Below are positions 7,854-36,391 of a stretch of 46,701 bases of DNA, one piece after another (within the stretch, counting starts at the first letter, position 1; every line of letters starts with the position of its first letter). The translations under genes and the position numbers were made by a program. This stretch comes from Rhodobacter sp. NTK016B (GTDB lineage: Bacteria; Pseudomonadota; Alphaproteobacteria; Rhodobacterales; Rhodobacteraceae), in contig NZ_JAFKOK010000023.1 in NCBI RefSeq assembly GCF_017303295.1, positions 1 through 46,701 of the forward strand, given 5' to 3'. Under the pieces are notes generated by a model that did no database searches, had not been told where the DNA came from, and was given only the letters and a program-made list of their open reading frames with translations.

Positions 7854-8015
7854 CCCTCTGTCCGTGCCCGTCCGGGCGCCTGAGATCGTTATCCCTTCGG
7901 CGGGCGCGTTTGCGCCACTCTCCAGAGTTCCAGTGCGATCACGGTCCTTGGCGCCTGAGAGTTTACCGGGGCGGTTGCTCCTTCGGCACCGGCCCGGGGG
8001 CCGGATTCTCCCGTC
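7851..8015 (-). ncRNA. Tandem glycine riboswitch (gcvT motif, two aptamers)
   Basis: On the minus strand, aptamer I (about 8015-7932) contains GGGAGAA, GTGCCGAAGGAGCAA, CTCTCAGGCGC and AAGGACCG. Aptamer II (about 7930-7851) contains CTGGAGAG, CGCCGAAGGGATAA, TCTCAGGCGCC, GGACGGGCA and ACAGAGGGG. These are the conserved blocks of the gcvT RNA family. The two modules are separated by only a few bases and precede gcvT. Cooperative glycine binding that switches the operon on is established for the class. Confidence 0.92.
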
Positions 8016-8027
8016 ATCACCCCCTGT

Positions 8028-11438: not shown

Positions 11439-11528
11439 GGAGACGTGGCCGAGTGGTCGAAGGCACACCCCTGCTAAGGGTGCAGACGGGAAACCGTCTC
11501 GAGGGTTCGAATCCCTTCGTCTCCGCCA
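11439..11528 (+). tRNA. tRNA-Ser (anticodon GCT)
   Basis: A 90-base class II tRNA. The acceptor GGAGACG (11439-11445) pairs with CGTCTCC (11518-11524), followed by G and an encoded CCA. The anticodon stem CACCC/GGGTG encloses CTGCTAA, with GCT at 11473-11475. The long variable arm is GACGG-GAAA-CCGTC, and the T arm contains GGTTCGAATCC. It reads AGC/AGU codons. Confidence 0.97.
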
Positions 11529-14551: not shown

Positions 14552-14781
14552 TGATGCACGCGGCCTCGCTCACGTCCCCACGCCTGACGCGCGTGCTCGC
14601 GGTGCTTGCCGACGGGCGGCCGCACACCACGCGCGAGATCGTGCGGAAGGCCGGGGTCATGGCGGTCAATGCATGCGTCTCCGAGCCGCGCCACCACGGC
14701 GCGCTCATCGAGTGCCGCTCCGAGATCATCGGAGGGCACAGACGGTTTTTCTACACGATGACTAAGGGGCCTCTCCAGTGA
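14551..14781 (+). CDS. Small winged-helix-like protein
   Basis: A 76-residue protein. LTSPRLTRVLAVLADGRPHTTREIVRKAGVMAVNACVSE has the helix-turn-helix pattern of a small winged-helix domain, followed by a beta wing (ECRSEIIGGHRRFFYTM). Two ATGs in tandem make the exact start uncertain by one codon. Overlaps the ParB-like gene by 4 bases. Function unknown. Confidence 0.6.
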   Translation: MMHAASLTSPRLTRVLAVLADGRPHTTREIVRKAGVMAVNACVSEPRHHGALIECRSEIIGGHRRFFYTMTKGPLQ

Positions 14782-15602
14782 TCACCTTTCACCCCGCCAC
14801 CAAAGAAATGCTGATCGAAGAGATCGCTCTTACGGAGCGCTTGCGCCCGGTGGCCGAGGACCGGGTAGCGGCGCTGATCGAGCTGATCGACGCATACGGG
14901 TTCACGACACCGATCGTGGTTCGGAAGACCCGGACAGCTTTCACGCTCATCGACGGTGCCCACCGTATTGAGGCGATGCGTCGGCTGGGCCACAACTCGA
15001 TCCCGGTCGTTGCCTGCAGCTGCACCGACGATGAAGCGGCGCTAATGGAGGCCGGGCAGAACCTGCCGGGTGGTATGAACGCGCTGGACGATGCGGTGTT
15101 CATGGTGGCGTGGCGGCGGGCGTATCTTCGCCTGCATCCCGAAACGGCCGGAGGCGTCGCGGGCGCTTTGGCAAAGCATGGCGTGCAAGTGGAAAAAATT
15201 CCATTTGCAGAAATCGCTGCGCAGCGACGCGGCGTCACTAAGGCTGCCATCTACAAGACTATCGCGGCTGTCGAGAGCCTCCAGCCTTCAGAGATTGATA
15301 TCCTCCGCGAGGCTCCAAGGGTCGCGGTGAGCGACCTCCGCGAGATTGGAAAGATCAGCGCTCCTGATGAGCGCGCACAGGTTGTTCAAAAGCTCGCCAA
15401 TGGTGAGGCGAAGAACGCTGCCACCGCTAGACGCCAGTACCGCGCTGAGAGGGGTGATGCGGCGCCGGTCGTCAAGGACGCCGTCGATCAACAGTATCTG
15501 GCGCTAATGAAAGCCTGGAAGCGCTCGGGCGCCGCCGCGCGCCGCCGTTTTCTCGACGAAATCCGTGGTGAAAGCCTCGGCCCGGAGGTCGCGGCCGAAT
15601 GA
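14778..15602 (+). CDS. ParB-like nuclease-domain protein
   Basis: A 274-residue protein with an N-terminal ParB/Srx domain (residues 1-95). TPIVVRKTRTAFTLIDGAHRIEAMRRLG matches ParB boxes, including the GAHR loop that in ParB binds CTP. A central helical region (about 115-170) resembles the ParB HTH. No partner ParA is present, and the gene is translated just ahead of the transposase with a 4-base overlap. A role in organising phage DNA, or as a regulator of transposition, is inferred. Confidence 0.75.
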   Translation: MITFHPATKEMLIEEIALTERLRPVAEDRVAALIELIDAYGFTTPIVVRKTRTAFTLIDGAHRIEAMRRLGHNSIPVVACSCTDDEAALMEAGQNLPGGMNALDDAVFMVAWRRAYLRLHPETAGGVAGALAKHGVQVEKIPFAEIAAQRRGVTKAAIYKTIAAVESLQPSEIDILREAPRVAVSDLREIGKISAPDERAQVVQKLANGEAKNAATARRQYRAERGDAAPVVKDAVDQQYLALMKAWKRSGAAARRRFLDEIRGESLGPEVAAE

Positions 15603-17716
15603 GCAACTCCGATCACTTCCGGACATGGTGGACCGCGCGCGAGCTGGCGGGATCCGGCCTGCCGGACGTCCCCGCAACACGACAAGGCGTAGAAGCCTTG
15701 GCAGGACGGCTCGACTGGCGCGCGGACCCTTCGCTAGCGCGTCGCCGCGCCGCGCGCGGCGGCGGCTGGGAATACAATTGGCGGCTGCTTCCAGTGCGCG
15801 CGCAGACCGCGTTGCTCAAGGGCTCTCGGCCTGAGGCCGACACGGCGGTGACCATGGAGCGCGGCGACGCGTGGCAATGGTTCGACGGGCTTCCGGATCG
15901 GGTGAAGGCCAAGGCGCGCGAGCGTCTCGAAGTGATCCAGAAGGTGGAAGCGCTGGAAGCGCCAATGGGCAAGAACCTCGCGGTCGAGACGGTCGCGGCG
16001 CAATGCGGTGTCTCCGCGCGGTCCATCTGGAACTGGCTCGGGATGATCGAAGGCCAAGACGTATCTGACCGCCTTGCTTATCTCGCGCCTCGGCATCGCG
16101 CCGCTTCTCCCAAGCGCGAGCGCGCCGTGTGCAGCCAGGAGTTCCTGGACCGCATGCGCGCCGATTACTTGCGTCTTGCCGGCCCGAGCCTGCGTTCGGT
16201 CCACCGCCGCGTCGTCAATTGGTGCCAGCAACACGATCTCGCCTATCTCGAATACCGAACCACCCTTCGTTGGTTTGACGAGAACGTGCCACGCGTCGTT
16301 CTGGTCCACGCCCGAGAAGGCGAACGCGGACTTGCCCGGTGCTTCCCGCCCCAGATCCGCGATCGGTCTACGCTCGCCGCGATGGAGGGGGTCGTTGCCG
16401 ACTGTCACAAGCTCGACGTGTTCGTGCAATGGCCCGAGATCGAGAAGCCGGTCAGGGTTCAGATTGTGGCCTTCACTGATCTCTATTCGAACAAGGTTCT
16501 GTCGTGGAAGATCGACCTTGATCCCAACAAGGTGGCGGTGGCGTCAGCCCTCGGCGAGCTGGTCGAGACCTGGGGCATCCCGAAGCACTGCCTCTTCGAC
16601 AACGGACGCGAATTCGCCAACAAGTGGTTGACGGGGGGCGTTCCCACGCGGTTCCGCTTCAAGGTGCGCGACGACGATGTCCTCGGCATCCTTCCTCAGA
16701 TGGGAATAAAGGTCCATTGGGCGACCCCCGGGCACGGGCAGGCAAAACCGATCGAGCGTAGCTTCCGCGATTTCGCCGACGACATAGCCCGCCACCCTGC
16801 TTTCTCTGGCGCCTATGTCGGCAATCGACCGGATGCAAAACCCGAGGACTACGGCAGCCGCGCCATTCCCCTCGCGGACCTGCTCGACGTGGTCGATCTC
16901 TGCGTCAAAGAGCACAACGCCCGTCAAGGGCGCCTCACCCCCACGGCCAAAGGCCGCAGCTTCGACGACACGTTCGCGGAAAGCTATGCGCGTGGACAGG
17001 TTCGCAAGGCAACCGCCGAGCAGCATCGTCTTTGGCTGATGGGTCAGGAAGAGCGCAAGCTGCACAAGCATCACGGGGCCTTCCAGCTGTTCGAAAACAG
17101 CTATTGGGCCGACTGGATGAACGAGCATGTAGGCGAGGAAGTCGTCGCCCGCTTTGACCCCGAGAACCTGCACGCGGGCCTCTTCATCTACGCCCGTTCC
17201 GGTGAGTTCATGGGCTTCGCGGAGTGCCGCGAGAAGGTCGGTTTCTTCGATTTGGTCGGTGCCAAGAATGCCGCCCGCCTCAAGCGTCAGCAACGCGCGG
17301 CGGTCAAGAAGGTGCTCGACATGCACCGGCCTGTTTCCGTCGATCAATGGGCGGAGGAACTCAAGGAGGCGCAACGCGCCGAAGCACCGCTCGTCGAGGC
17401 GAAGGTTGTCGAACTCGACGCCCGCCATCGCCGGAAACCGCTTCTGGAGCGCCCTCTGCCGGTGCCTGACACCTCCGACGAGGAGCGGCTCAACGTCTTT
17501 AACGCGCCCTTTAACAGGTCGCAGCCCGAACCCGCGAAACCGGAGCACGACCCGGTCGCGCAGTTTTGGCGCGCGCTCGATATCGAGCGCCGCTCGGAAG
17601 CCGGCGAGCCGGTTTCCGAAGAGGACGCCGCTTTCTGGGCGCGCATGCAGCGCCTGCCCGAGTACCGCGCCCGCCGGCTCATGTTCGAGCGGCACGGCGC
17701 CGAGGCGATCCTGTGA
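15599..17716 (+). CDS. Mu-type DDE transposase (MuA-like)
   Basis: A 705-residue transposase for integration and replicative transposition. The N-terminal MuA-like DNA-binding region starts WWTARELAGSGLPDVPATRQGVEALA (about residues 7-32). A middle HTH follows (VSARSIWNWL near 135). The RNase H catalytic core has Asp268 (VADCHKLDVF), Asp334 (FDNGREF) and Glu386 (GQAKPIERSF), with spacing very close to Mu D269/D336/E392. The C-terminal part (560-705) is Glu/Arg-rich and would contact the B protein. The length is near that of MuA (663). The catalytic triad is complete. Confidence 0.95.
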   Translation: MSNSDHFRTWWTARELAGSGLPDVPATRQGVEALAGRLDWRADPSLARRRAARGGGWEYNWRLLPVRAQTALLKGSRPEADTAVTMERGDAWQWFDGLPDRVKAKARERLEVIQKVEALEAPMGKNLAVETVAAQCGVSARSIWNWLGMIEGQDVSDRLAYLAPRHRAASPKRERAVCSQEFLDRMRADYLRLAGPSLRSVHRRVVNWCQQHDLAYLEYRTTLRWFDENVPRVVLVHAREGERGLARCFPPQIRDRSTLAAMEGVVADCHKLDVFVQWPEIEKPVRVQIVAFTDLYSNKVLSWKIDLDPNKVAVASALGELVETWGIPKHCLFDNGREFANKWLTGGVPTRFRFKVRDDDVLGILPQMGIKVHWATPGHGQAKPIERSFRDFADDIARHPAFSGAYVGNRPDAKPEDYGSRAIPLADLLDVVDLCVKEHNARQGRLTPTAKGRSFDDTFAESYARGQVRKATAEQHRLWLMGQEERKLHKHHGAFQLFENSYWADWMNEHVGEEVVARFDPENLHAGLFIYARSGEFMGFAECREKVGFFDLVGAKNAARLKRQQRAAVKKVLDMHRPVSVDQWAEELKEAQRAEAPLVEAKVVELDARHRRKPLLERPLPVPDTSDEERLNVFNAPFNRSQPEPAKPEHDPVAQFWRALDIERRSEAGEPVSEEDAAFWARMQRLPEYRARRLMFERHGAEAIL

Positions 17717-18517: not shown

Positions 18518-19089
18518 TGGCGCGCCAACGTGTTGACCGCGCCGCTCCCGGCCGCGAGGTGATCTGGTCCACGATCCGCGCGCAGGCAGGCCGTGCCTTC
18601 GCCGTCAGCGAGATCGCTCTTGCGGCTAAGGCCAATGACAAGACCGTGCGCGATTACTGCAAGGGTTTGGAGGCCGCAGGATATCTTTCGCGGCTTCCTG
18701 ACGAAGAGGGCGTTCCCGTCCGCTGGACGCTCACCCGCGACGTTGGTCACGAGGCGCCCCGCGTCCGTCCCGACGGCACGGCTGTCAGGCAGGGCTCCAC
18801 GACGGAGCAGCTCTGGCGCGGCATGTACATGCTGAAGGATTTTACCTTCAGGGACCTTATCGAGACGGCGTCGATCCAGATCTCGGAGGACACCGCGAGG
18901 GCCTATTGCAAGATGCTGCTTTCGACGGGGTACCTGAGGGTGCTGCAGAAAGCGGATCCGGTTAAGGGCCGCATCGCCCGGTACCGGCTCCTTCGCAACA
19001 ACGGTCCGAAGCCGCCGCAAATCCAGCGCGTAAAACAGGTCTTTGACCCCAACACCCGCGAGATCTTCGTGCCGGGGGGGCGTAAATGA
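18517..19089 (+). CDS. Tandem winged-helix protein
   Basis: A 190-residue protein with two similar winged-helix-like units: AFAVSEIALAAKANDKTVRDYCKGLEAAGYL (residues 26-56) and DFTFRDLIETASIQISEDTARAYCKMLLSTGYL (about 107-140). Both end in the same A-x-x-YC-K-x-L-x-x-x-GYL pattern. It probably binds DNA as a regulator. The ATG at 18517 overlaps the MuB stop by one base and has GGAGGA 8 bases upstream; a GTG one codon earlier is possible. The family is often seen beside MuB in Mu-like phages. Confidence 0.7.
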   Translation: MARQRVDRAAPGREVIWSTIRAQAGRAFAVSEIALAAKANDKTVRDYCKGLEAAGYLSRLPDEEGVPVRWTLTRDVGHEAPRVRPDGTAVRQGSTTEQLWRGMYMLKDFTFRDLIETASIQISEDTARAYCKMLLSTGYLRVLQKADPVKGRIARYRLLRNNGPKPPQIQRVKQVFDPNTREIFVPGGRK

Positions 19090-20952: not shown

Positions 20953-21225
20953 ATGTCCAAGATCTACGGAAAGACCGACCTCGTCGCAGACATCGCGGCC
21001 CGGACGGAACTCTCGCGCGCCAGCGTCGAGGCGGTGCTCCAGGAGCTCGCGAATGCCGTCCACACCGAAACCGAGGCAGGCCGCACGGTCGTTCTGCCCG
21101 GCGTGGGCCGCTTCACGCAGAAGATGCGGGCCGCGCGGGCCGGACGCAATCCTCGCACCGGAGCGCCCGTCGATATCCCCGCAAAGGCGGTCCTCGGCTT
21201 CAAGCCGTCCAAGGCAACATCCTGA
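20953..21225 (+). CDS. HU-family DNA-binding protein
   Basis: A 90-residue histone-like protein: KTDLVADIAARTELSRASVEAVLQELANAV, then GRTVVLPGVGRFTQKMRAARAGRNPRTGAPVDIPAKAVLGFKPSK. The arm motif GRNPRTG and full HU/IHF length are present. AAAGGAAG precedes the ATG. Mu transposition needs host HU and IHF to bend DNA in the transpososome; this phage supplies its own homologue, which may serve that purpose or compact phage DNA. Confidence 0.92.
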   Translation: MSKIYGKTDLVADIAARTELSRASVEAVLQELANAVHTETEAGRTVVLPGVGRFTQKMRAARAGRNPRTGAPVDIPAKAVLGFKPSKATS

Positions 21226-21308
21226 TGCGAAACCCGCGAGCCCTCAACCGGGCTCGCGCGGTCGGCCGGGCGTGGTGGCGCGGTCCTGATGAGCAGCCGG
21301 AGGATGTT

Positions 21309-22749: not shown

Positions 22750-23148
22750 ATGACGGCCTGGATCGACGAACTCGAACGAGATCTGGGGCAAGCCGCGCGG
22801 CTTCGGGTGATCGCGAACGCGGGCGGTCAGCGGCGGGACATCCCGCGCCCCGAACATGCCGAGCTCTCGGTTCTTGCAGCCGAAATCGGCGCTGACGCGG
22901 TGCGCTGGCTCGCGCAACGCTTCGCCGGCACCAAGATCGATTTCCCGTCGCATCGCGGGAACGAAACTCAGCGCCGCGCGAGCCTGCTTCGCGCCGCGAT
23001 CCTCGACGCGGGATTGACGCAACCGAGCCGCTCCGCCAATGATATCGCTCGCGAGTTCGGGGTCACGTCCATGTGGGTCCGCAAGCTGCGCGCCGAGATG
23101 CGCTCGGATATGTCGGGCCTTCAGCCAGAGCTGCCGCTCTTCGACTAA
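22750..23148 (+). CDS. Mor/C-type late transcription activator
   Basis: A 132-residue activator. The Mor/C core is visible: LAAEIGADAVRWLAQRFAGTKIDFPS (dimerisation region with the GTKI-FP strand) and a C-terminal HTH, SANDIAREFGVTSMWVRKLRAEM (residues about 96-118). Mu C sits immediately before its target promoter Plys. Here the stop is 3 bases before the first late-promoter element, which makes this protein the likely activator of both copies. Only one such gene is visible, so it may serve both Mor and C roles. Confidence 0.8.
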   Translation: MTAWIDELERDLGQAARLRVIANAGGQRRDIPRPEHAELSVLAAEIGADAVRWLAQRFAGTKIDFPSHRGNETQRRASLLRAAILDAGLTQPSRSANDIAREFGVTSMWVRKLRAEMRSDMSGLQPELPLFD

Positions 23149-23150
23149 TA

Positions 23151-23200
23151 CCCCCCGAAACTACTTCCCACGGCCGCGCCCGCTTGACGTGTGGCAATCC
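23151..23200 (+). promoter_or_regulatory. Late promoter copy 1 (lysis/packaging operon)
   Basis: CCCCCCGAAAC-t-AC-t-TCCCACGGCC (23151-23175) is followed after 16 bases by TGGCAATCC. The same blocks with the same 16-base gap occur at 30480-30530. It corresponds in position to Mu Plys. The -10 is probably CAATCC with an upstream TG. Confidence 0.75.
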
Positions 23201-23232
23201 CGCTTTGACGACTTGTCAGATCGGAGCCAGAC

Positions 23233-24135
23233 ATGCGCACGAGCGAGCGGGGAATTGCGTTCAACGAGCGGTTCGAGGGCGTGGTGCTGCGCGCGTACCG
23301 GGACCCGGTGGGGATCTGGACGATCGGCGCCGGGCTGACGGCTGCCTCGGGCGTGGTGGATCCCGGGCCGGGCATGGTGATCACCGCCGAGGAGGCCTCG
23401 CGGCTCATGGCCGAGGCGCTCCGCACGCGCTACGAGCCTGCGGTCAACCGGGCCATGCCCGGCGCCAAGCAGCACGAGTTCGACGGCGCGATCTCGTTTC
23501 ACTGGAACACTGGGGCCATTGAGCGCGCGAGCTGGGTGCCGGCCTGGGCGAGCGGCAACATGGCCGCGATGCGGGAACGGCTGGCGCGGTGGAACAAGGG
23601 CGGGGGCAAGGTGCTGCCGGGCCTCGTGCGGCGCCGCAAGGCCGAGGCCGATCTCATCCAGTACCGCGACTATGGTGTGCCCTTGCGGGCTAAGGCCCCG
23701 CGCGGGCTGGCCCGCGTGACGCTCGATCTGTCGCGCGACGAGGTGAGGGCCGCCCGCGATGCCCTGAAGGCGCGGGACTACGCGGTCGGCGAGGACACGC
23801 GCGGCATCGCCGTTGATGCGGTCCGCGCGTTCCAGACCGATCACGACCTGACCGTGGACGGCATCCTCGGGCGCGCGACGCTGTCCACGCTGCAGCGCTC
23901 GATCGACGCGCGGGGCAAGTCGCTGGTGGGCGGCGGGCTCGTCGCCGGCGGTGGCGCAGAAACCGCCACCAACGTGCTGCCCCCTGATCTGCCGCTCGCC
24001 TGGACCGGCCCCGTGGCGCTCGTGCTCGGGGGGCTTCTCGTTGCCTATCTCGCCTGGACCTACCGCGACATCCTCGCGGCCAAGCTTCAGGCCCGCCTGC
24101 CGCGCGTCGCGGCCTTCCTCAGGAGTATCAAATGA
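23233..24135 (+). CDS. Endolysin: GH24-type lysozyme with peptidoglycan-binding domain and C-terminal membrane helix
   Basis: A 300-residue muramidase. The T4-lysozyme triad is present with exact spacing: Glu15, Asp24, Thr30 in FEGVVLRAYRDPVGIWTIGAG. A PG_binding_1-like repeat spans about residues 175-230 (VRAARDALKARDYAV...VRAFQTDHDLTVDGILGRATLSTLQR). A hydrophobic helix (about 262-282, GPVALVLGGLLVAYLAWTY) and a basic end follow. There is no N-terminal signal, so release should depend on the holin, yet the C-terminal helix could tether it to the membrane. GGAG lies 7 bases upstream of the ATG. First gene after the late promoter. Confidence 0.88.
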   Translation: MRTSERGIAFNERFEGVVLRAYRDPVGIWTIGAGLTAASGVVDPGPGMVITAEEASRLMAEALRTRYEPAVNRAMPGAKQHEFDGAISFHWNTGAIERASWVPAWASGNMAAMRERLARWNKGGGKVLPGLVRRRKAEADLIQYRDYGVPLRAKAPRGLARVTLDLSRDEVRAARDALKARDYAVGEDTRGIAVDAVRAFQTDHDLTVDGILGRATLSTLQRSIDARGKSLVGGGLVAGGGAETATNVLPPDLPLAWTGPVALVLGGLLVAYLAWTYRDILAAKLQARLPRVAAFLRSIK

Positions 24136-24647
24136 GCAGCAGCCTGACGGCCCTTGCCCTGCAGATCGGCGTCCCGCTCGTCGGCCGGGTTCTCTCGCAA
24201 CGCCTCGGCTCGGGCAATGCCCGGCTGATCACCGAAGTGATCGACGCCGTCGCCCGCAGGCTGGGCGTCTCGCCCGCCGAGGCCGAGGTGCTGGCCCAGA
24301 CCGATGAGGGCCGCGTCATCGACGCGCTGCGCGAGACCGAAGCCGACATGCCCGAGCTGATCGCGCTCCATGCCTCGGCGCTTGAAGCGCAGACCGCGCT
24401 CCTGATGGCCGAGCAGCGCGGCCCGTGGTGGGGCTGGGCGTGGCGGCCGGCCTTCATGTGGCTGCTCGCCTTCCTGTGGCTGTGGAACGTGGTGCTGTTG
24501 CATATTGCGAACGCGGTCTGGCGCATCGCTCTGCCGCCGATCGATCCGGGCGTGCTGCTCTCTGTCACCGGGATCTATGCCGCCCTCTATATGGGCGGGC
24601 ACACCGTCAAGGACTGGGTGCGCATCAGCCGGGGCGGAACTGCGTGA
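24132..24647 (+). CDS. Putative holin (3TM-type)
   Basis: A 171-residue membrane protein that overlaps the endolysin gene by 4 bases. After a soluble helical half (LTALALQIGVPLVGRVLSQRL... ALRETEADMPELIALHASALEAQT), two strong hydrophobic helices follow (WAWRPAFMWLLAFLWLWNVVLLHIA and GVLLSVTGIYAALYMGG). The GPWWGWAWRP-x-F motif is typical of the 3TM holin family of Mu-like and other phages. It should open the inner membrane for lysis. Confidence 0.75.
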   Translation: MSSSLTALALQIGVPLVGRVLSQRLGSGNARLITEVIDAVARRLGVSPAEAEVLAQTDEGRVIDALRETEADMPELIALHASALEAQTALLMAEQRGPWWGWAWRPAFMWLLAFLWLWNVVLLHIANAVWRIALPPIDPGVLLSVTGIYAALYMGGHTVKDWVRISRGGTA

Positions 24648-24973
24648 CGTTTGACGATGTAATAGTCTGGGCGGCCGGTCTCGCCACACTGATCTCGTTG
24701 GCGACGACGATCTGGAACTTTGTGGCGTCCGGTTCGCGGGCCAACGCGAAGCGGATCGAAGACCAGGATCAGCGCCTCAACCGTCACGAGGCCCGGCTGA
24801 GCTCCGTCGAGCAGGATATCCGCAACCTTCCGGCGCAGGGCGATCTGCATCAGGTCCAGCTGGCGCTGGAGCGCATGCACGGGGACCTCAAGGAAATGCG
24901 GGCGATCATGGGGCGCATGGAAAGCATCGTGTCGCGGCACGAGGAACATCTGTTGGACGGAAGCAAACGATGA
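24644..24973 (+). CDS. DUF2730 family protein (Mu gp25-like)
   Basis: A 109-residue protein with an N-terminal membrane helix (VIVWAAGLATLISLATTIWNFV) and a long coiled coil (KRIEDQDQRLNRHEARLSSVEQDIRNLP...). It starts at GTG inside GTGA, coupled to the holin stop. This matches the DUF2730/Mu gp25 type between lysis and terminase genes. The function is unknown; it may act in lysis as a spanin-like or antiholin-like partner, which is inference. Confidence 0.75.
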   Translation: MTFDDVIVWAAGLATLISLATTIWNFVASGSRANAKRIEDQDQRLNRHEARLSSVEQDIRNLPAQGDLHQVQLALERMHGDLKEMRAIMGRMESIVSRHEEHLLDGSKR

Positions 24974-25278
24974 CCGACTATTCCGAAACCCTGCGCCGGC
25001 ACCGCCGTCTGGCTATCCTGCGCCATCTCGCGGCATGCGCCGAGTACACCTCCAACGCGTCCATCCTGGCGGATGTCCTGCGCGGCGTCGGCGTGACGTC
25101 GACCCGGTCGCAGGTGGTCACAGAGCTCACCTGGCTGGCAGAGCAAGGCTTCGTCCACAACGATGATCGCGGGGATTTCGTCATTACCATGGCGACCGAT
25201 CGCGGCGTCGAGATTGCAGCCGGTCAAGCCACGCATCCCGAGATCCAGCGCCCGCGTCCGCGCCGCAACGGAGCGTGA
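24970..25278 (+). CDS. Mu gp26-like winged-helix protein
   Basis: A 102-residue protein of the type found between gp25- and gp27-like genes in Mu relatives. It is a winged-helix pattern: RLAILRHLAACAEYTSNASILADVLRGVGVTSTRSQVVTELTWLAEQGFV, then a wing (DDRGDFVITMATDRGVEIA). The second half of the recognition helix is Ser/Thr/Arg-rich. Function unknown. Confidence 0.7.
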   Translation: MTDYSETLRRHRRLAILRHLAACAEYTSNASILADVLRGVGVTSTRSQVVTELTWLAEQGFVHNDDRGDFVITMATDRGVEIAAGQATHPEIQRPRPRRNGA

Positions 25279-25279
25279 C

Positions 25280-25819
25280 ATGCCGCCGCCTCGCAAGATC
25301 GATCTTCTGCCGGCAGAACTGCGCGGGTGGCTCCAGGAAGAGCTGCGCGCACGAGGTTTCGGTCAATACGAAGACCTCGCCGAAGCTCTGAACTTCCGGC
25401 TTGAGGAAGCCGGGCTGGACCTGCGCATTCGGAAATCAGCGCTGCATTCATGGGGCTCCGAATACCAGGAGTTTGTCCGTCTGCAGGAGCAGGCGAGTGA
25501 TTGGGCGCAGGAGTGGCTCGGCGAAATGGGCATGGACGATCAGGCGCGTCGCCAGAGCGTCCTTTTCCAAATGCTGACCACGCTGGCCTTCAAGGTAATG
25601 CGGGCAGAAGTCGAGAAAGAAGGCGACGAGATCAGCCCGCAAAGCCTGCATTTCCTCGCGCGGATGATGAAGGACGTCATGTCGTCGTCGGGCATCGTCC
25701 AAGCGATGCGTGAGAAGGACCGCAAGGAACAAGGCGCGAAACTCGATGCGGCCGTGGCCTCGGGCGACATCGATGCCGAAGCCGCCGCCAAGGCGCGCAA
25801 GATCATGGGGTTCGCATGA
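25280..25819 (+). CDS. Terminase small subunit (DUF3486, Mu gp27-like)
   Basis: A 179-residue protein. The N-terminal KIDLLPAELRGWLQEELRARGFGQYEDLAEALNFRLEEAGLDLRIRKSALHSWG is the HTH of DUF3486 proteins, which bind DNA for head-full packaging. A long helical C-terminus follows. The ATG at 25280 lies one base past the previous stop, with GGAGCG upstream. Followed by a small gene and the large subunit. Confidence 0.85.
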   Translation: MPPPRKIDLLPAELRGWLQEELRARGFGQYEDLAEALNFRLEEAGLDLRIRKSALHSWGSEYQEFVRLQEQASDWAQEWLGEMGMDDQARRQSVLFQMLTTLAFKVMRAEVEKEGDEISPQSLHFLARMMKDVMSSSGIVQAMREKDRKEQGAKLDAAVASGDIDAEAAAKARKIMGFA

Positions 25820-26004
25820 AAAACGAAGCTGCAGCGATGCTGATCCTTGTCTCCAACGAGCACTTCAAGCTCGCGCGCTGGTGGACACTCGCGGCCGCGT
25901 GGGTCTTCGGCCGGCATCGGATCGTCCACCATCTCGGCCGGGAAGCCCGTGTCGCCTTCTGGCGGGGCACGCCCTATCTGCTCACGTTCCGAGAGGTGAC
26001 GTGA
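25816..26004 (+). CDS. Small hypothetical protein between terminase genes
   Basis: A 62-residue basic, aromatic protein (FKLARWWTLAAAWVFGRHRIVHHLGREARVAFWRG). It overlaps its neighbours by 4 and 1 bases. One amphipathic or hydrophobic helix is possible. No family recognised. Confidence 0.5.
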   Translation: MKNEAAAMLILVSNEHFKLARWWTLAAAWVFGRHRIVHHLGREARVAFWRGTPYLLTFREVT

Positions 26005-27422
26005 TGCCAACGCCGGCGCGCCCGGTCATCAATTTCCTTCCCTATCAGCGAGCGTGGATTGCTGACGAAAGCCGCTTCAAGATCGGCATGTTCGCGCGGC
26101 AGACCGGCAAGACCTTCTCTACCGGAGGGGAATGCGCCGATGACTGTTTCAAAGCGTGGATAGAAGATCGGCGGGTACGCTGGGTGATCTTGTCGCGCGG
26201 CGAGCGTCAGGCCGCCGAAATGATGACCGAGGTTATTCAGCCGTTCACGAAGGCCTTTTATGAGGTCTACAATACCCTGTTGAAGGGCGCCGAACCGAAC
26301 TTCTGGCAAGATGAGTTCCGCGCCCCGCAACCGAACGGACCGGATGCCGTCTACAAGTCGCTCGAATGCGGTTTTCCCAACGGAAGCCGGATCACCGCGC
26401 TGCCGGCCAATCCTGACACGGCCAGGGGTTTTTCCGCCAACGTCATTCTTGACGAGTTCGCCTTCCACGCGAAGTCGCGGGCAATCTGGGCTGCGCTGTT
26501 CCCGGTCATCTCGAAGGGCAAGCAGAAGCTGCGCGTGATTTCGACGCCAAACGGCAAGGGCAACAAGTTCTACGAGTTGATGACGGCCGAGGGATCGGTC
26601 TGGTCGCGGCACGTCGTCGACATCTACGAGGCCGTGCGCCAGGGCCTCGATCGTGACGTTGACATGCTGCGTCAGGGCATGGCCGACGAGGATGCGTGGG
26701 CGCAGGAATACGAGCTCCAATGGCTCGACGAGGCGAGCGCCTGGCTCGACTACGACCTGATCTCGGCTTGTGAATCGAACTCGGCCGGCAACCCCGAACT
26801 CTACATGGGCGGGCTCTGCTTCGTGGGCGTCGATATCGCGGCGCGCACCGACCTCTTCGTCATCGTGGTGGTCGAGCTCGTGGGCGACGTCCTCGTCACC
26901 CGCGAGATCATAGCGAAGCGGCGGATATCCTTCGCGGAGCAAGACATGCTTCTGGACGAGGTCATGATGCGGTACCGCGTCGTGCGCGTTCGTATGGACC
27001 AGACCGGCATGGGCGAAAAGCCGGTCGAAGACGCCAAGAGACGTCACGGCTCGGAGCGCGTCGAGGGCATTCTCTTCAGCGCTGCCGCGAAGCTCGACAT
27101 GGCAACCTCGCTGAAAGAGTCGATGCAGGATCGCAAAACGCGGCTGCCGGCCGGCGACCCGGTTCTGCGCGCGGACCTGCACTCGATCAAATCGCAGGTG
27201 GGGATCTCCGGCACGCGCCGCCTGGTAGCGGACGGTGACAGCGACGGGCACGCTGACAGGTTCTGGGCGCTGGCCCTCGCAGTGTCGGCCGCCGAGATGG
27301 ATGTCGAGGCCTACGACTACAGCAGCGTACCCGGGTTGCGGTCCCGGTTTGCCGATCGTGACCAGGACGACGAAGACGATGTCTCGGCCGAACGCTGGGG
27401 ACAACACCAAGGAGCGTGGTAA
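26004..27422 (+). CDS. Terminase large subunit (Mu gp28-like)
   Basis: A 472-residue packaging motor. The ATPase N-domain has a Walker A-like ARQTGKT (residues 31-37) and Walker B VILDEF with Asp150-Glu151. A coupling segment KLRVISTPNGKGN follows. The RNase H-like nuclease domain begins GVDIAARTDLFVIVVVE (Asp277), with MDQTGMGEKPVED and a C-terminal SDGHADRFWALALA acidic motif. It starts at ATG overlapping the previous stop (TGATG) and ends at TAATG shared with the portal gene. Confidence 0.92.
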   Translation: MPTPARPVINFLPYQRAWIADESRFKIGMFARQTGKTFSTGGECADDCFKAWIEDRRVRWVILSRGERQAAEMMTEVIQPFTKAFYEVYNTLLKGAEPNFWQDEFRAPQPNGPDAVYKSLECGFPNGSRITALPANPDTARGFSANVILDEFAFHAKSRAIWAALFPVISKGKQKLRVISTPNGKGNKFYELMTAEGSVWSRHVVDIYEAVRQGLDRDVDMLRQGMADEDAWAQEYELQWLDEASAWLDYDLISACESNSAGNPELYMGGLCFVGVDIAARTDLFVIVVVELVGDVLVTREIIAKRRISFAEQDMLLDEVMMRYRVVRVRMDQTGMGEKPVEDAKRRHGSERVEGILFSAAAKLDMATSLKESMQDRKTRLPAGDPVLRADLHSIKSQVGISGTRRLVADGDSDGHADRFWALALAVSAAEMDVEAYDYSSVPGLRSRFADRDQDDEDDVSAERWGQHQGAW

Positions 27423-29014
27423 TGCTGGTCGATCAGTTTGGCCGCCCCATCAAAAGGGCATCCACATCCGAGATGCTCGAGCGCCAATCGGTTCCGGGCC
27501 TCGGTTCGGTTCGCCAAATCCAGTCCGGTCACCCGGCGGATGGGCTGACACCGCCGCGTCTTGCCGCCGTCCTGAGGGAGGCCGAGACGGGGGATGCTAC
27601 CGCCTATCTCGAACTCGCCGAACAGATGGAGGAGAAGGACCTGCACTACGCGGCCGTGCTTGGGGTACGAAAGCGCGCCATCCGATCGCTAGAGCTCCAG
27701 GTGGACGCCGGGGACGATAGCAATGCTGCGAAGGAAGCCGCGGAGATCGTTCGCAAGTCGCTCGACACGGCCGCAGTCCGGACCTCCCTGATCGACGTCA
27801 TGGATGCCTTGGGCAAAGGGTTCTCTGTCTCCGAGATCCTTTGGGAAAGGGACGGCAACCGGCTGAAGCTCTGCGGGATCGAACTGGTCGACCCGCGTTG
27901 GTTCGAGTTCGATCAGGAAAACGGCCAGCACATCTATCTGCGTGACAATGCCGGTCCTCAGATCCTCCGACCGGACAGCTATCTGATCCATGTCGCCAAG
28001 GCGAAATCGGGCCTTGCCATCCGGGGCGGCCTGGCGCGCCTCGCGGCCTGGGCGTGGCTGTTCAAGAATTACAGCCTGAAGGACTGGGCCATTTTCCTTG
28101 AAGCCTACGGGCACCCTCTGCGCCTCGGCCGGTATGGGCAGCATGCAAAGCCGGAGGAAAAGCAGATCCTGCTCCGCGCCGCGCGCCAGATCGGCGTCGA
28201 TATGGCGGCGATCATCCCGAAGGAGATGGACCTCGAAGTGATTTCGGCCGCGAGCTCCGGCAGCGAAAAGCTCTATGAGGGCAACGCGCGATACTGGGAT
28301 CAGCAGCTGTCCAAAGGGGTGCTTGGCCAGGTTGCCACCACTGACGCCATTGCGGGCGGGCATGCCGTGGGTAAGATCCACGAAGAGGTCCGCAGCGATA
28401 TTCGCGACGCGGATGCCGAGCAGCTGGCCGCGAGTTTGCAGCGCGACGTGGCCGGCGCCCTGGTCCGTCTGAATTTCGCGGACCGGCACCGGGTGCCGCT
28501 GCCGATCATCAGCTTCGTTTCGCCGGAACGGGCCGATCCGAAGCTGATGATGGAGTTGATGGAGAAAGGCCCGAAGGCCGGCCTCAAGATCCCGGTCAGC
28601 CAGATCCGGGAGGTTTTTGCGTTGCGAGAACCCGAAGAGGGGGAAGCCATTCTCGAACCGCCCATGCCGCCGGCAATCCGCCCTGAGGTCCCCGCGCCGA
28701 CGTCCGATCAGATGGCCGCCGGAAACCCCAGCCGCCAGACCGCCGCACGCCAGGAAACGGATCGGCCGAGGGACAGCATCGATGCGTTGGTGGACGATCT
28801 GATCGCAGGCGGCGGGATGCAGCGCGTCATGGACGCGGAGTTCGGTGCGCTGCTCGAAGCGTTGCGCAAAGCTGAAACTGTGGAAGACGTCCAGGACATC
28901 CTCGTGGCATTCGACGCCGAAGACCTCGGGGCTGTGCGCGAGCTCATCGCCAGATCGACCTTTGCCGCACGAATGGCCGGGGAAGCCGGGGCCTCGATCC
29001 AGGACGGATCATGA
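27422..29014 (+). CDS. Portal protein (DUF935, Mu gp29-like)
   Basis: A 530-residue portal of the DUF935 family. Markers are MLVDQFGRPIKR, LRFAAVLREAETGD-like DLHYAAVLGVRKRAI, SEILWERDGNRLKL, FLEAYGHPLRLGRYG and a long C-terminal variable part (AILEPPMPPAIRPE onward). It forms the dodecameric vertex for DNA entry. The ATG overlaps the terminase stop. The last 130 residues are Pro/Glu-rich and helical, typical of the barrel and crown. Confidence 0.92.
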   Translation: MLVDQFGRPIKRASTSEMLERQSVPGLGSVRQIQSGHPADGLTPPRLAAVLREAETGDATAYLELAEQMEEKDLHYAAVLGVRKRAIRSLELQVDAGDDSNAAKEAAEIVRKSLDTAAVRTSLIDVMDALGKGFSVSEILWERDGNRLKLCGIELVDPRWFEFDQENGQHIYLRDNAGPQILRPDSYLIHVAKAKSGLAIRGGLARLAAWAWLFKNYSLKDWAIFLEAYGHPLRLGRYGQHAKPEEKQILLRAARQIGVDMAAIIPKEMDLEVISAASSGSEKLYEGNARYWDQQLSKGVLGQVATTDAIAGGHAVGKIHEEVRSDIRDADAEQLAASLQRDVAGALVRLNFADRHRVPLPIISFVSPERADPKLMMELMEKGPKAGLKIPVSQIREVFALREPEEGEAILEPPMPPAIRPEVPAPTSDQMAAGNPSRQTAARQETDRPRDSIDALVDDLIAGGGMQRVMDAEFGALLEALRKAETVEDVQDILVAFDAEDLGAVRELIARSTFAARMAGEAGASIQDGS

Positions 29015-30312
29015 CGGCAATCGAACTGCTCCCGCTCCCGCATCGGGAAGCCATCGCCTATCTGCGCTCGAAAGGCTTCGCGCCCCCTGAGCAACGCTTT
29101 GACTATCGGGATGTCTGGCTCGAAGAGCACGCCCGGAGCTGGGTCGTGGCGAAAGCGATGCGTGACGACGTCACGCGCGAGATCCGCGATGCCGTCACCC
29201 GCGTCCTCGAAGAGGGCGGAACCGTCCGGGCCGCGATGAATGACCTCGCTCCCAAATTGCAGCGGCTGGGTTGGTGGGGCCGAAGCACGATGCTTGATCC
29301 AGTGACGGGCGAGATGCGGGACGTTCAGCTCGGCTCGATGCGCCGGCTGCGGGTGATCTTCGACACGAATTTGCGCACCGCTCACGCGGCGGGGCACTGG
29401 GCGGCGATCGAGCGGACCAAACGTGGTTTCCCCTATCTGCAGTACATCCAGATAGATCGCCCCACAAAGCGGCACGATCACCGGCGGTTTCACGACAAGA
29501 TCTGGCGTGTTGATGATCCGATCTGGAAGCGGATCTATCCGCCGAATGGCTATTTCTGTGGCTGCCACGTGATCCAACGCACCGAAGGGTGGATGCGCCG
29601 CAACAACCGCACGGTTGATGCGCCGGCCGAGCTTGATGAACGTCCGTGGTCGAATGAGCGGACGGGCGAGATCACCGCCGTACCGCGCGGGGTTGATCCC
29701 GGCTTCGATTCGAACCCGGGGGCGGCCTGGCTTGATATCCGCGAAGCCGTCGATCGCGTCATGCCGGAAGCAGGCATTGAGCAACGCGCCACCGCGCAAG
29801 GTATTCTGAGCGGGCTGCGCGCCCAGACCCTCGCGAGGGGTGCTGAAGGCTTGGCGATCGTGGACGCCGCCGGCCGTCCCACCATGGCCGCATTCGGAAC
29901 CCGGGAGGCACCCACGGCCCTCTCCGTCGAATGGTCGCGGTTGGCGCCAGGCGCCGCCTCTTTTCGGAGCTATGCTGACGAACTCGCCTTTGGCGAAGAC
30001 CTCAGCACCGCATTCGACGTCGGCCTGCGGTCCGTCACCGCGATCACGCCCAGCGGCGCGCTCTGGAGTGCGGAGAACCGTGAAGCGGGCAACACCGCCG
30101 CCCTTTACCAAGCCTTTGAGCGCCAAGCCGCCCGGTATCGTGCAGAGCTCGCCGCGCTGGCAGAGGGCCGTCTCGTCTACACTCACGCCCGGGCGCTTTG
30201 GCTTGAGAAACAGGGCGCCTTGACCTATCGTTACGCCTTGTCGGAGCGTGTTCGGCAAGCTCTGGCGCGTAACGCGGATCTGGTGCGGAGATTGGTCGAG
30301 GCCGCAGAATAG
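29011..30312 (+). CDS. Head morphogenesis protein (Mu gp30/MuF-like) with extra C-terminal domain
   Basis: A 433-residue minor head protein. The MuF core covers about residues 50-205 (MRRLRVIFDTNLRTAHAAGHW, then RHDHRRFHDKIWRVDDPIWKRIYPPNGYFCGCHVI, with the conserved Cys pair). About 190 further residues (245-433) are not part of the core. They begin GLAIVDAAGRPTMAAFG and contain FGEDLSTAFDVGLRSVTAITPSGALW, reminiscent of MuF-fused JAB- or toxin-like domains but without the expected His residues. The extension is unassigned. MuF proteins are packaged and may be ejected with DNA. Confidence 0.85.
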   Translation: MTAIELLPLPHREAIAYLRSKGFAPPEQRFDYRDVWLEEHARSWVVAKAMRDDVTREIRDAVTRVLEEGGTVRAAMNDLAPKLQRLGWWGRSTMLDPVTGEMRDVQLGSMRRLRVIFDTNLRTAHAAGHWAAIERTKRGFPYLQYIQIDRPTKRHDHRRFHDKIWRVDDPIWKRIYPPNGYFCGCHVIQRTEGWMRRNNRTVDAPAELDERPWSNERTGEITAVPRGVDPGFDSNPGAAWLDIREAVDRVMPEAGIEQRATAQGILSGLRAQTLARGAEGLAIVDAAGRPTMAAFGTREAPTALSVEWSRLAPGAASFRSYADELAFGEDLSTAFDVGLRSVTAITPSGALWSAENREAGNTAALYQAFERQAARYRAELAALAEGRLVYTHARALWLEKQGALTYRYALSERVRQALARNADLVRRLVEAAE

Positions 30313-30479
30313 CCCGCACAGGTCAAGCACCGGCAGAAACGCCCTGAGAGGCCGCACGATGCCTTCCGCGCGCCGTTGGCCGCGAACGAACCTCTCGGCC
30401 GGTTTTGAAGGCCCTCAGGCGGTTTTAAACGGTATCTGACACGCCCGCCGCACTCGCCTTCCGTCCCGCGACCCTGAAG

Positions 30480-30530
30480 CCCCCCGAAACAACATCCCAC
30501 GGCCCTGCCTCGGGCGGCTCTGGCATATCC
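30480..30530 (+). promoter_or_regulatory. Late promoter copy 2 (head operon)
   Basis: Matches copy 1 at 23151: CCCCCCGAAAC-a-AC-a-TCCCACGGCC, then 16 bases, then TGGCATATCC. It corresponds in position to Mu PI, upstream of gene I. The predicted -10 CATATC (30524-30529) puts the start at about 30536, the A of the protease ATG. The surrounding gap (30313-30535) holds no gene. Confidence 0.75.
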
Positions 30531-30535
30531 GGGGC

Positions 30536-31552
30536 ATGGAAAAGACCGTTCGCAATATCTGTGCCGTGGCAACGGCTCTGCCCGCCGAGCCCCCCGCCCG
30601 GATTGAGCTGATCCCGGTTGGAGCCTTCAAGACGGCCGACCGCCGCCCGCAGTTCCGGATCGATGATGCAGCGGCCGTGATCGCCGCGAGCCTTGAGCAG
30701 GCCCCGGGCGGGGTTCTTCCGATCGATTTCGACCACCGCTCTTTCGCGTCGAGCGGCACGGCCGACAGCCGCGCGGCGGGCTGGATCACCGGGCTGGAGG
30801 TCGAAGGCGACCGCGTCATGGCCTCGGTCGAATGGACGGAAGACGGCCAAAAGGCTGTCTCGGGGCGGGTCTACCGCTTCATATCACCCGTGTTCAAGAA
30901 CCTGCCCGACGGTCAGGTGGTGCTGATCGAAGGCGCCGGCCTCGTCAACACGCCCGCTCTCCCCCAGCTTCGTCAACTTGCTTCCAAGGAAAATTCGATG
31001 GACCCGATCGAAGAGATCGCGGGCCTGCTCGGCCTTGCCGCCGACAAGCCCGCTGACATCGTGACGCGCGTGACCTCGCTCGTCGCAGCCGAGACGCAGC
31101 TCGCGTCGATCACCAAGGCCGCCAAAGTGGACGGACCCGAGGCCGTGACCCAGATCTGCGCCCGGCTCACCAAGCCGGTTGCCGATCCTGGCGAGTTCGT
31201 GCCGAAAGCCTCGTTCGACGAGCTGCAGACGCAATTCGCCGCGCTTCAGACGACCGTCAAGAACGGCGCGGTGGAAGCCGCGCTCGATCGTGCGCGGGAA
31301 GCCGGCAAGCTCACCCCCGATCTCGAACCGTGGGCCACGCAGCTCGCCGCGAAGGACCTCTCCGAATTCGAGGCCTGGGCCGCCGTGGCGCCGGTGCGTG
31401 TGAACGTCTCGGGGCAGCGCCAGCTCGCGGGCCGTCCGGCTCCGGTGAAAACCGACGCGCTGGACGAGACCGAGCGCCAGGTCGCCTCGCTGATGGGGAT
31501 TGCCGAGGCCGATTTCCTCGCCACCCGCAACGCCGCCGTGAAGGAGCACTGA
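30536..31552 (+). CDS. Prohead protease/scaffold precursor (Mu I-like)
   Basis: A 338-residue protein. The N-terminal half (1-150) is the Mu I-type prohead protease: PARIELIPVGAFKTADRR, VLPIDFDHRSF, AAGWITGLEVEGDRVMASVEWTEDGQKAV, YRFISPVF and GAGLVNTPAL. The C-terminal half (155-338) is the helical scaffold. The start matches family N-termini but has no real Shine-Dalgarno sequence and sits at the predicted transcription start, suggesting a leaderless message. An internal start yields the scaffold alone. Confidence 0.9.
   Translation: MEKTVRNICAVATALPAEPPARIELIPVGAFKTADRRPQFRIDDAAAVIAASLEQAPGGVLPIDFDHRSFASSGTADSRAAGWITGLEVEGDRVMASVEWTEDGQKAVSGRVYRFISPVFKNLPDGQVVLIEGAGLVNTPALPQLRQLASKENSMDPIEEIAGLLGLAADKPADIVTRVTSLVAAETQLASITKAAKVDGPEAVTQICARLTKPVADPGEFVPKASFDELQTQFAALQTTVKNGAVEAALDRAREAGKLTPDLEPWATQLAAKDLSEFEAWAAVAPVRVNVSGQRQLAGRPAPVKTDALDETERQVASLMGIAEADFLATRNAAVKEH
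30998..31552 (+). CDS. Nested scaffold protein (Mu Z-like), internal start
   Basis: An in-frame ATG at codon 155 of the protease gene (MDPIEEIAGLLGL) has AAGGA 7 bases upstream (30986-30990). It would give a 184-residue helical scaffold, equal to the C-terminal half of the precursor. This copies the nested I/Z and lambda C/Nu3 designs. Confidence 0.65.
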   Translation: MDPIEEIAGLLGLAADKPADIVTRVTSLVAAETQLASITKAAKVDGPEAVTQICARLTKPVADPGEFVPKASFDELQTQFAALQTTVKNGAVEAALDRAREAGKLTPDLEPWATQLAAKDLSEFEAWAAVAPVRVNVSGQRQLAGRPAPVKTDALDETERQVASLMGIAEADFLATRNAAVKEH

Positions 31553-36058: not shown

Positions 36059-36391
36059 ATGTTGAAGATCATCAAGAACCCCGAATTCACCGCGAAAGTG
36101 AAAGTCCGCATGCCCGTCGAGGGCGGTGCGCAGGACACTCAGTTCACGGCCCGTTTCAAAGGTCTGACGGTGTCTGAGACCGCCGCTTTCGACACGGTGA
36201 CGGTGGAAGGCACCAACAGCTATCTGCGCGCCATTCTCGTCGGCTGGGGCGAAGATCTGCGCGATGAGGCCGGCGAACCGATGAGCTTCAACGACGCCAA
36301 CCGCGACATGCTGATCGATATCGGGCCCATCCGTGTCGCGCTGCTCCAAGCCTACAACCTCGCGATGATGGGGGCGAAGCAGGGAAACTGA
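36059..36391 (+). CDS. Tail assembly chaperone, short form (gpG-like)
   Basis: A 110-residue protein: LKIIKNPEFTAKVKVRMPVEGGAQDTQFTARFKGLTVSETAAFD, then an acidic helical region. It lies in the G position between tube and tape measure. Its final codons CAG-GGA-AAC-TGA contain the slippery heptamer GGGAAAC one codon before the stop, allowing a fraction of ribosomes to continue in the -1 frame. Confidence 0.85.
   Translation: MLKIIKNPEFTAKVKVRMPVEGGAQDTQFTARFKGLTVSETAAFDTVTVEGTNSYLRAILVGWGEDLRDEAGEPMSFNDANRDMLIDIGPIRVALLQAYNLAMMGAKQGN

Follow-up and report, generated by a model that had tools for sequence, protein, structure and literature searches.

Two near-identical DNA elements in Rhodobacter sp. 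NTK016B, one ahead of a lysozyme gene and the other ahead of a gene for Mu-like protease I, are proposed here to be the late promoters of a Mu-like transposable siphophage, a reading to which we assign a probability of roughly 0.85. Both lie in contig NZ_JAFKOK010000023.1, a whole contig of the host genome whose 46,701 nucleotides (nt) make up the stretch analysed (the window), and in which a Mu-like prophage extends rightward from a ParB-like gene. In the proposed mechanism, the Mor/C-type product of the gene at 22750-23148 would bind as a dimer to a dyad core, G(A/G)AA-N4-(A/T)TCC, centred at -44.5, and would recruit host RNA polymerase to an extended -10 (TGGCA, read as T-15, G-14, n, C-12, A-11) with no conserved -35; on the comparative evidence we hold this part with high confidence. 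With good confidence, the same activator would turn on two operons and no more, that for lysis from lysozyme onward and that for the capsid from protease I onward. Capsid transcription is likely to start at 30536, the first base (A) of the protease start codon, giving a leaderless messenger RNA (mRNA), and lysis transcription near 23207, giving a 26-nt leader that carries a ribosome-binding site. The spelling of the half-sites differs between phage lineages and the recognition helix of the activator changes along with it; this correlation is shown by our data, while binding is inferred.

The element consists of a 25-base block, CCCCCCGAAACnACnTCCCACGGCC, at 23151-23175 and 30480-30504 (23 of 25 bases identical, two differences), followed 16 bases later by TGGCA at 23192-23196 and 30521-30525. 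The activator stop codon, which ends at 23148, is separated from the lysis block by 2 bases, and the capsid block from the protease ATG by 31 bases. The original prediction, made from the letters of this stretch, had described two blocks with identical spacing and two substitutions in 25 bases, which is confirmed at 23151-23196 and 30480-30525, and its placing of one block behind a Mor/C-type gene and before lysozyme, and of the other before the protease, holds in both positions and gene names. The gap is 16 when counted from the 25-base block and 18 when counted from the 18-base core printed in that prediction; a pattern of the 18-mer plus 16 free bases has no exact match, since the true gap is then 18, and gave one match with three mismatches and none in 100 shuffles. 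When the host genome was searched with a 19-base core and up to three mismatches, 11 matches were returned, the exact ones only at these two sites, versus 14 for the control pattern read backwards.

Table 1. Coordinates of the prophage features discussed in the text; promoter elements, leader and start are predictions.
Feature	Position	Strand	Basis or remark
ParB-like gene	14778-15602		prophage left part
MuA transposase gene	15599-17716		follows ParB-like gene
Mor/C-type late activator, 132 amino acids, helix-turn-helix at residues 96-122	22750-23148	+	PHROG 836, Pfam Mor, AlphaFold2 model
Activator block of lysis promoter (Plys-like); core GAAA-N4-TTCC at 23157-23168; predicted -56 to -32	23151-23175	+	
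TGGCA of lysis promoter, predicted extended -10 (T-15 G-14 n C-12 A-11)	23192-23196	+	predicted start about 23207
Predicted 26-nt leader of lysis mRNA; GGAG at 23223-23226	23207-23232	+	
Phage lysozyme/endolysin, gene 1 of lysis operon	23233-24135	+	Pfam PF00959, PHROG 7
Phased TTTTGAA/TTTTAAA element, neighbour of the promoter and outside it	30403-30433	+	
Activator block of capsid promoter (PI-like); core GAAA-N4-ATCC at 30486-30497; predicted -56 to -32	30480-30504	+	
TGGCA of capsid promoter, predicted extended -10	30521-30525	+	
Predicted transcription start, A of protease ATG (leaderless mRNA)	30536-30536	+	element-ATG spacing, no Shine-Dalgarno
Mu-like protease/scaffold I, gene 1 of capsid operon	30536-31552	+	Pfam PF10123, PHROG 328

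Relatives of the activator were found in three phage records (representing two phages), at 19 loci in viral contigs, in 6 of 394 genomes of the window's own family (host included) and at 15 loci in GTDB contigs, nearly all under Rhodobacteraceae genus names. From these, 29 loci, the window among them, were taken as distinct by eye from their sequences without a threshold, providing 25 regions after the activator and 24 before the protease, 49 in all; near-identical copies or second stretches (L028, L046, L047, L050, L051, L053-L057, L059-L064, L068-L070), contigs that break off behind the activator gene (L037, L058) and the distant loci L072-L093 were omitted. A two-part weight matrix seeded with the two window sites exceeded its threshold of 12 bits in 36 of the 49 regions (35 of them with a gap of 16), and a free scan of both strands, covering 730,005 bases in 36 locus stretches (seven being second stretches of contigs already included), added two lysis sites that stand farther from the activator gene (L041, L048). 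The search of related prophages for blocks 16 bases apart, which the original prediction had proposed, thereby yields a TGGCA-type site in 38 of the 49 regions with a gap of 16 in 37 of the 38, the exception being the lysis site of L045 (gap 17). The free scan placed the site at the lysis and protease positions only, save for two minus-strand matches lacking TGGCA. Of the remaining 11 regions, nine hold a divergent block in the same register, weakly so at L036 lysis and L040, and the other two, both of L035, have none that we recognise. Nine sites, namely both of L032, L038, L042 and RC1 plus that of L071, were placed by block register alone, and for L032, L042 and L071, where the protease match begins at residue 18-22, the ATG was inferred from the frame. 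The L042 core stands in opposite orientations at its two genes, as a dimer site would allow. The phages RcapMu and RC1 each have a private dyad in two copies, one at the lysis gene and one at the protease gene, with none elsewhere in the genome. An exact scan of the viral contigs with the 18-mer gave five stretches, none with TGGCA at the right place in the flank, and these were taken as chance.

With the T of TGGCA set at -15, the dyad centre falls at -44.5 and the block extends from -56 to -32. TG occupies -15/-14 in 43 of 51 sites and A stands at -11 in all 51; the matrix that picked out most of these sites itself contains TGGCA, but the nine placed by register alone also have A-11, and RcapMu was aligned with a gap of 15 chosen by the analyst, its A-11 being no independent check. 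The TGGCA element fits an extended -10. In seven divergent phages the palindrome peak lies at -44, counted from a start position that is itself predicted, and at the Mu promoter Pm the Mor dimer dyad is centred at -43.5 with a footprint from -56 to -36 (PMC4287176; papers are cited here for the parts of their text that were available).

The two sites of a phage resemble each other more than they resemble those of other phages: the block at the lysis gene and that at the protease gene share 21.1 of 25 bases within a phage and 17.3 between phages (19 phages, 0 of 100,000 permutations, with the L045 lysis site placed one base off). Divergence of the sites also follows the activator. Across 22 phages, site distance correlated with distance in the recognition helix (residues 106-114) at r = 0.73 and with distance in residues 8-92 at r = 0.48; the helix correlation stayed at 0.63 after removal of residues 8-92 (0 of 20,000 permutations), and the correlation of residues 8-92 fell to 0.04 after removal of the helix (7767 of 20,000). 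With RcapMu and RC1 added (24 phages), the four values were 0.75 for the helix, 0.66 for residues 8-92, and 0.55 and 0.32 for the respective corrected correlations. The AlphaFold2 model of the activator (mean predicted local distance difference test score 88.1, predicted template modelling score 0.58; helices at 96-103 and 107-122) has a C-terminal helix-turn-helix and puts its helix 107-122 at the co-varying residues. The suggestion that one activator drives both late operons is supported by the comparison, through the recurrence of sites at the same two places in nearly all relatives, the matching within phages and the co-variation with the recognition helix.

The family assignment of the activator rests on a match to PHROG 836 (E = 1.2e-15) and one to Pfam Mor at 25.2 bits, above the cut-off of 24.9; a six-frame search gave 20.6 bits for Pfam Mor, under the cut-off. 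The Mor-family search of the host genome recovered the activator and one weaker match with an internal stop on another contig, both under the cut-off.

A third copy of the element, which the original prediction had thought possible, was not found: no site of the same type occurs elsewhere in the window, in the Rhodovulum phage vB_RhkS_P1 (L019), in RcapMu or in RC1; for the remaining loci the scan covered partial sequence only. In the Pelagibaca phage vB_PeaS-P1 (L020, a record titled as a partial genome) there is one block-like minus-strand match without TGGCA, at record position 36332 (2537 in the reverse complement; score 23.8), and L033 has another at 1502 on its minus strand (score 13.4, also without TGGCA). 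These two resemble each other past the block and probably represent an early-region operator. Scans of RcapMu, RC1, L032, L038 and L042 with their own blocks gave, beyond the two sites, only reverse readings of the same dyads or matches at chance level.

Several observations weigh against the promoter interpretation or parts of it. The window dyads are imperfect, with three of four outer pairs in the lysis core and two of four in the capsid core, and in L035 TGGCA stands 10 nt ahead of the protease ATG, yet no block can be recognised either at that place or behind the activator gene. The extra match in the early region of L020 scores as high as the weakest accepted sites. On the protein side, comparison of the activator model with solved structures (Foldseek) gave no significant match (best E = 0.33), its profile found none among PDB sequences up to E = 1, and its alignment to Mu C with hhalign was not significant (E = 0.28). 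The 16-base gap is also more alike within a phage than between phages (5.5 versus 4.5 of 16; 416 of 100,000 permutations), whereas the next 10 bases show no such excess (3.1 versus 3.1; 50,640 of 100,000); relatedness would therefore account for part of the within-phage signal and not for the strength of that in the block. In the co-variation analysis, a residual for residues 8-92 persists once RcapMu and RC1 are included (565 of 20,000), residues 57-68 then correlating nearly as strongly as the recognition helix, and an earlier run with one misplaced site (L045) had likewise left a residual there (43 of 20,000). Finally, the predicted protease leaders are 18 nt in RcapMu and 24 nt in L038, so that not every member would be leaderless, and upstream in-frame protease starts exist in 9 of 25 phages (none in the other 16, the window among them).

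The predicted leaderless state of the capsid message follows from the spacing of the element. Counted from the TGGCA-type element, the protease ATG comes after 10 nt in 19 of the 25 phages, after 11 in three, after 9 in one, and after 28 and 34 in RcapMu and L038, respectively, and the first methionine of protease I is common to all 14 aligned sequences (the window included, each taken from its first matching residue). Ahead of the 23 protease starts at 9-11 nt, the median anti-Shine-Dalgarno energy was -2.7 kcal/mol, compared with -8.7 ahead of 50 genes of vB_RhkS_P1; the window ATG stands at -1.5, and 21 of the 23 are weaker than -6. Pairing that reaches -6 kcal/mol was seen at 2 of 23 protease ATGs; the corresponding counts were 16 of 23 for lysis genes, 41 of 50 for vB_RhkS_P1 genes and 13 of 17 for window genes, the last picked by the analyst. 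The 10-nt spacing and the missing ribosome-binding site in most phages together lead to the predicted leaderless capsid mRNA from 30536. In R. sphaeroides, the first gene of an operon proven to be leaderless is translated less than the genes that follow it (PMC3017554), and lower translation of the first gene would suit a protease ahead of the capsid protein.

The same activator and sites could also be read with TGGCA as the initiation region itself, so that a leader about 12 nt long would precede the protease and the lysis mRNA would begin with a stem-loop. A palindrome does start just past TGGCA or its equivalent at 14 of 26 lysis sites and would form a 5'-terminal hairpin if transcribed, and TATA-like runs occur in four lysis gaps (L030, L031, L043, L044), but the gap holds no conserved -10 (0.00-0.32 bits from -30 to -20 at lysis sites and 0.03-0.57 at protease sites, with 0.90 at -19 in the latter). 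Starting at TGGCA would moreover put the dyad about 33 bases from the start instead of about 44, unlike Mu Mor, and would leave unexplained the fixed 10-nt spacing between element and ATG without a ribosome-binding site; we regard this version as unlikely. That the blocks might terminate transcription of the operons ahead of them, or act as RNA hairpins of those operons, is suggested by RcapMu, whose copies are perfect GC-rich hairpins followed by TTTT, yet the window and the canonical relatives have an imperfect dyad core without a T run, and neither the co-variation with the helix nor the fixed distances to TGGCA and ATG would be expected of terminators, which makes the idea very improbable.

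Two further explanations we give still less credence. The block between F and I might be a topological element, the counterpart of the strong gyrase site of Mu, and no promoter; the Mu gyrase cut site is indeed annotated between G and I, but about 130 base pairs ahead of the protease start, 19 of the 25 phages hold a better candidate, similar to the Mu sequence next to the cut site, and a single central site leaves the block behind the activator gene unexplained, so that we consider this highly improbable. TGGCA could alternatively be the -24 element of a sigma-54 promoter. The hexamer TGGCAC matches the sigma-54 -24 consensus, and the window protease site has GC ten bases after GG. In a test for GG-N10-GC, however, GC stood at -2/-1 in 11 of 51 sites (lysis 3 of 26, protease 8 of 25) and was absent at the window lysis site, and the variants GCCTA, CCGTA and AAGCA lack GG altogether; this seems scarcely credible. 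The upstream candidate in the preceding comparison is the phased TTTTGAA...TTTTAAA element of Table 1; it is a probable counterpart of the right arm of the Mu strong gyrase site (cf. PMC10052514).

If the late-promoter interpretation is kept, the lysis leader deserves separate comment. A palindrome centred on the predicted start, with at least five of six base pairs, occurs at 14 of 26 lysis sites versus 34 of 780 other positions, and at 6 of 25 protease sites versus 40 of 750 elsewhere; the window lysis site has no clear palindrome around its predicted start. The left arms at lysis sites comprise eight different sequences as printed and six after merging of shifted versions, so that pairing rather than sequence appears to be conserved. 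A role like that at T4 gene e is possible. In a folding test, late RNA was more open in 16 of 23 cases (P = 0.02), and the native upstream sequence did no better than shuffled sequence (13 of 23, P = 0.13), a weak outcome; a lysis leader that acts as a translation switch, persuasive though it looks on inspection, was accordingly kept out of the proposed mechanism. A wider idea is that translation of both late operons is tied to the late-promoter start: the capsid message would be leaderless, so that read-through RNA would have no usable start, and in many phages the left arm of the lysis palindrome would be missing from late RNA, so that only late RNA would open the lysis gene. A private activator-site code in each lineage would in addition keep co-resident phages from cross-activating late genes. 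We find this combination rather doubtful.

More distant Mu-like proteases (24-46% identity) were inspected for a dyad 41-47 bases upstream of the protease ATG, with the best ATG used where there were several and a criterion set after a first look at the data. Of 27 loci examined, 22 were counted (near-duplicates L077, L078, L082, L083 and L089 being left out); 5 of the 22 had no ATG candidate, and among the 17 that did, 6 had a dyad of at least seven pairs at the predicted place compared with 20 among 1003 starts of other genes (P = 6e-7), an excess that is suggestive. No strong dyad stands at the predicted place in the other 11, DMS3 (L102) included. In DMS3 the protease homology starts with an ATG at 19037; the annotated start, 19163, lies downstream of it and may have been placed too late.

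The arrangement resembles Mu, where Plys and PI respond to C and Pm to Mor: a Mor/C-type gene lies just ahead of the lysis gene, the sites stand at the same two genes and, as at Pm, an activator dimer dyad would lie near -44 without a -35 (PMC4287176). It differs in the dyad sequence, the extended -10 and the predicted leaderless protease mRNA, in having one Mor-family match in the prophage where Mu has Mor and C, and in having two sites where Mu has four late promoters, PP and Pmom included. RcapMu and RC1 share the pairing of private dyads, confined to the same two genes, and in RC1 the ATG follows TGCCA by 11 nt, but their half-sites differ (CCGGAC/GTCCGG and CCACAA/TTGTGG, respectively), and RcapMu has a gap of 15 and a predicted 18-nt protease leader. 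vB_RhkS_P1 and vB_PeaS-P1 carry near-identical sites at both places, differing in that the lysis gene is annotated as an amidase. An mRNA 5' end at the AUG without a Shine-Dalgarno sequence, predicted here, is known from the leaderless acuR operon of Rhodobacter sphaeroides and from lambda cI (PMC3017554); those encode regulators, whereas here a capsid operon under an activator would be concerned. T4 gene e (lysozyme) similarly has a late start within an inverted repeat just ahead of a lysis gene (PMC3014915); hiding of the ribosome-binding site is documented there, while here the folding test is weak and no clear palindrome is present in the window.

No description of these sites was found in the open-licence literature, although an earlier one is conceivable. 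For RcapMu and RC1, the available text of PMC8601537 lacks the word promoter and its single use in that of PMC10783043 concerns another phage; for vB_PeaS-P1, the word is absent from the main text of PMC5488378. The mechanism as such is known from the Mu late promoters, and what appears to be new is the sites, their pairing under a single activator and the predicted leaderless capsid operon. For the Mu-like siphophages of Rhodobacteraceae the result offers a late-promoter rule that can be tested and, when such prophages are annotated, a quick way to mark late operons and the start codon of the protease; for the Mor family it offers a natural data set of activator-site co-variation. A leaderless capsid operon would be unusual if true, since the proven proteobacterial cases named in the available part of PMC3017554 are mainly regulators.

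Besides the lysozyme and protease I, the prophage encodes a terminase, Mu-type portal and F proteins and a lambda-like J protein. A type II hammerhead ribozyme (RF02276, 58.4 bits versus 37) was detected at 21225-21302 in the prophage, directly behind an HU-like gene named by eye; a literature search for a hammerhead in a Mu-like prophage found none. The same motif was present in three of nine relatives scanned: RcapMu (L103, 11131-11201), vB_PeaS-P1 (28359-28422, minus strand) and L045 (8429-8504). In the host flank, a glycine riboswitch lies at 7932-8023 on the minus strand and a tRNA-Ser (GCT) at 11439-11528, about 4 kb ahead of the transposase gene.

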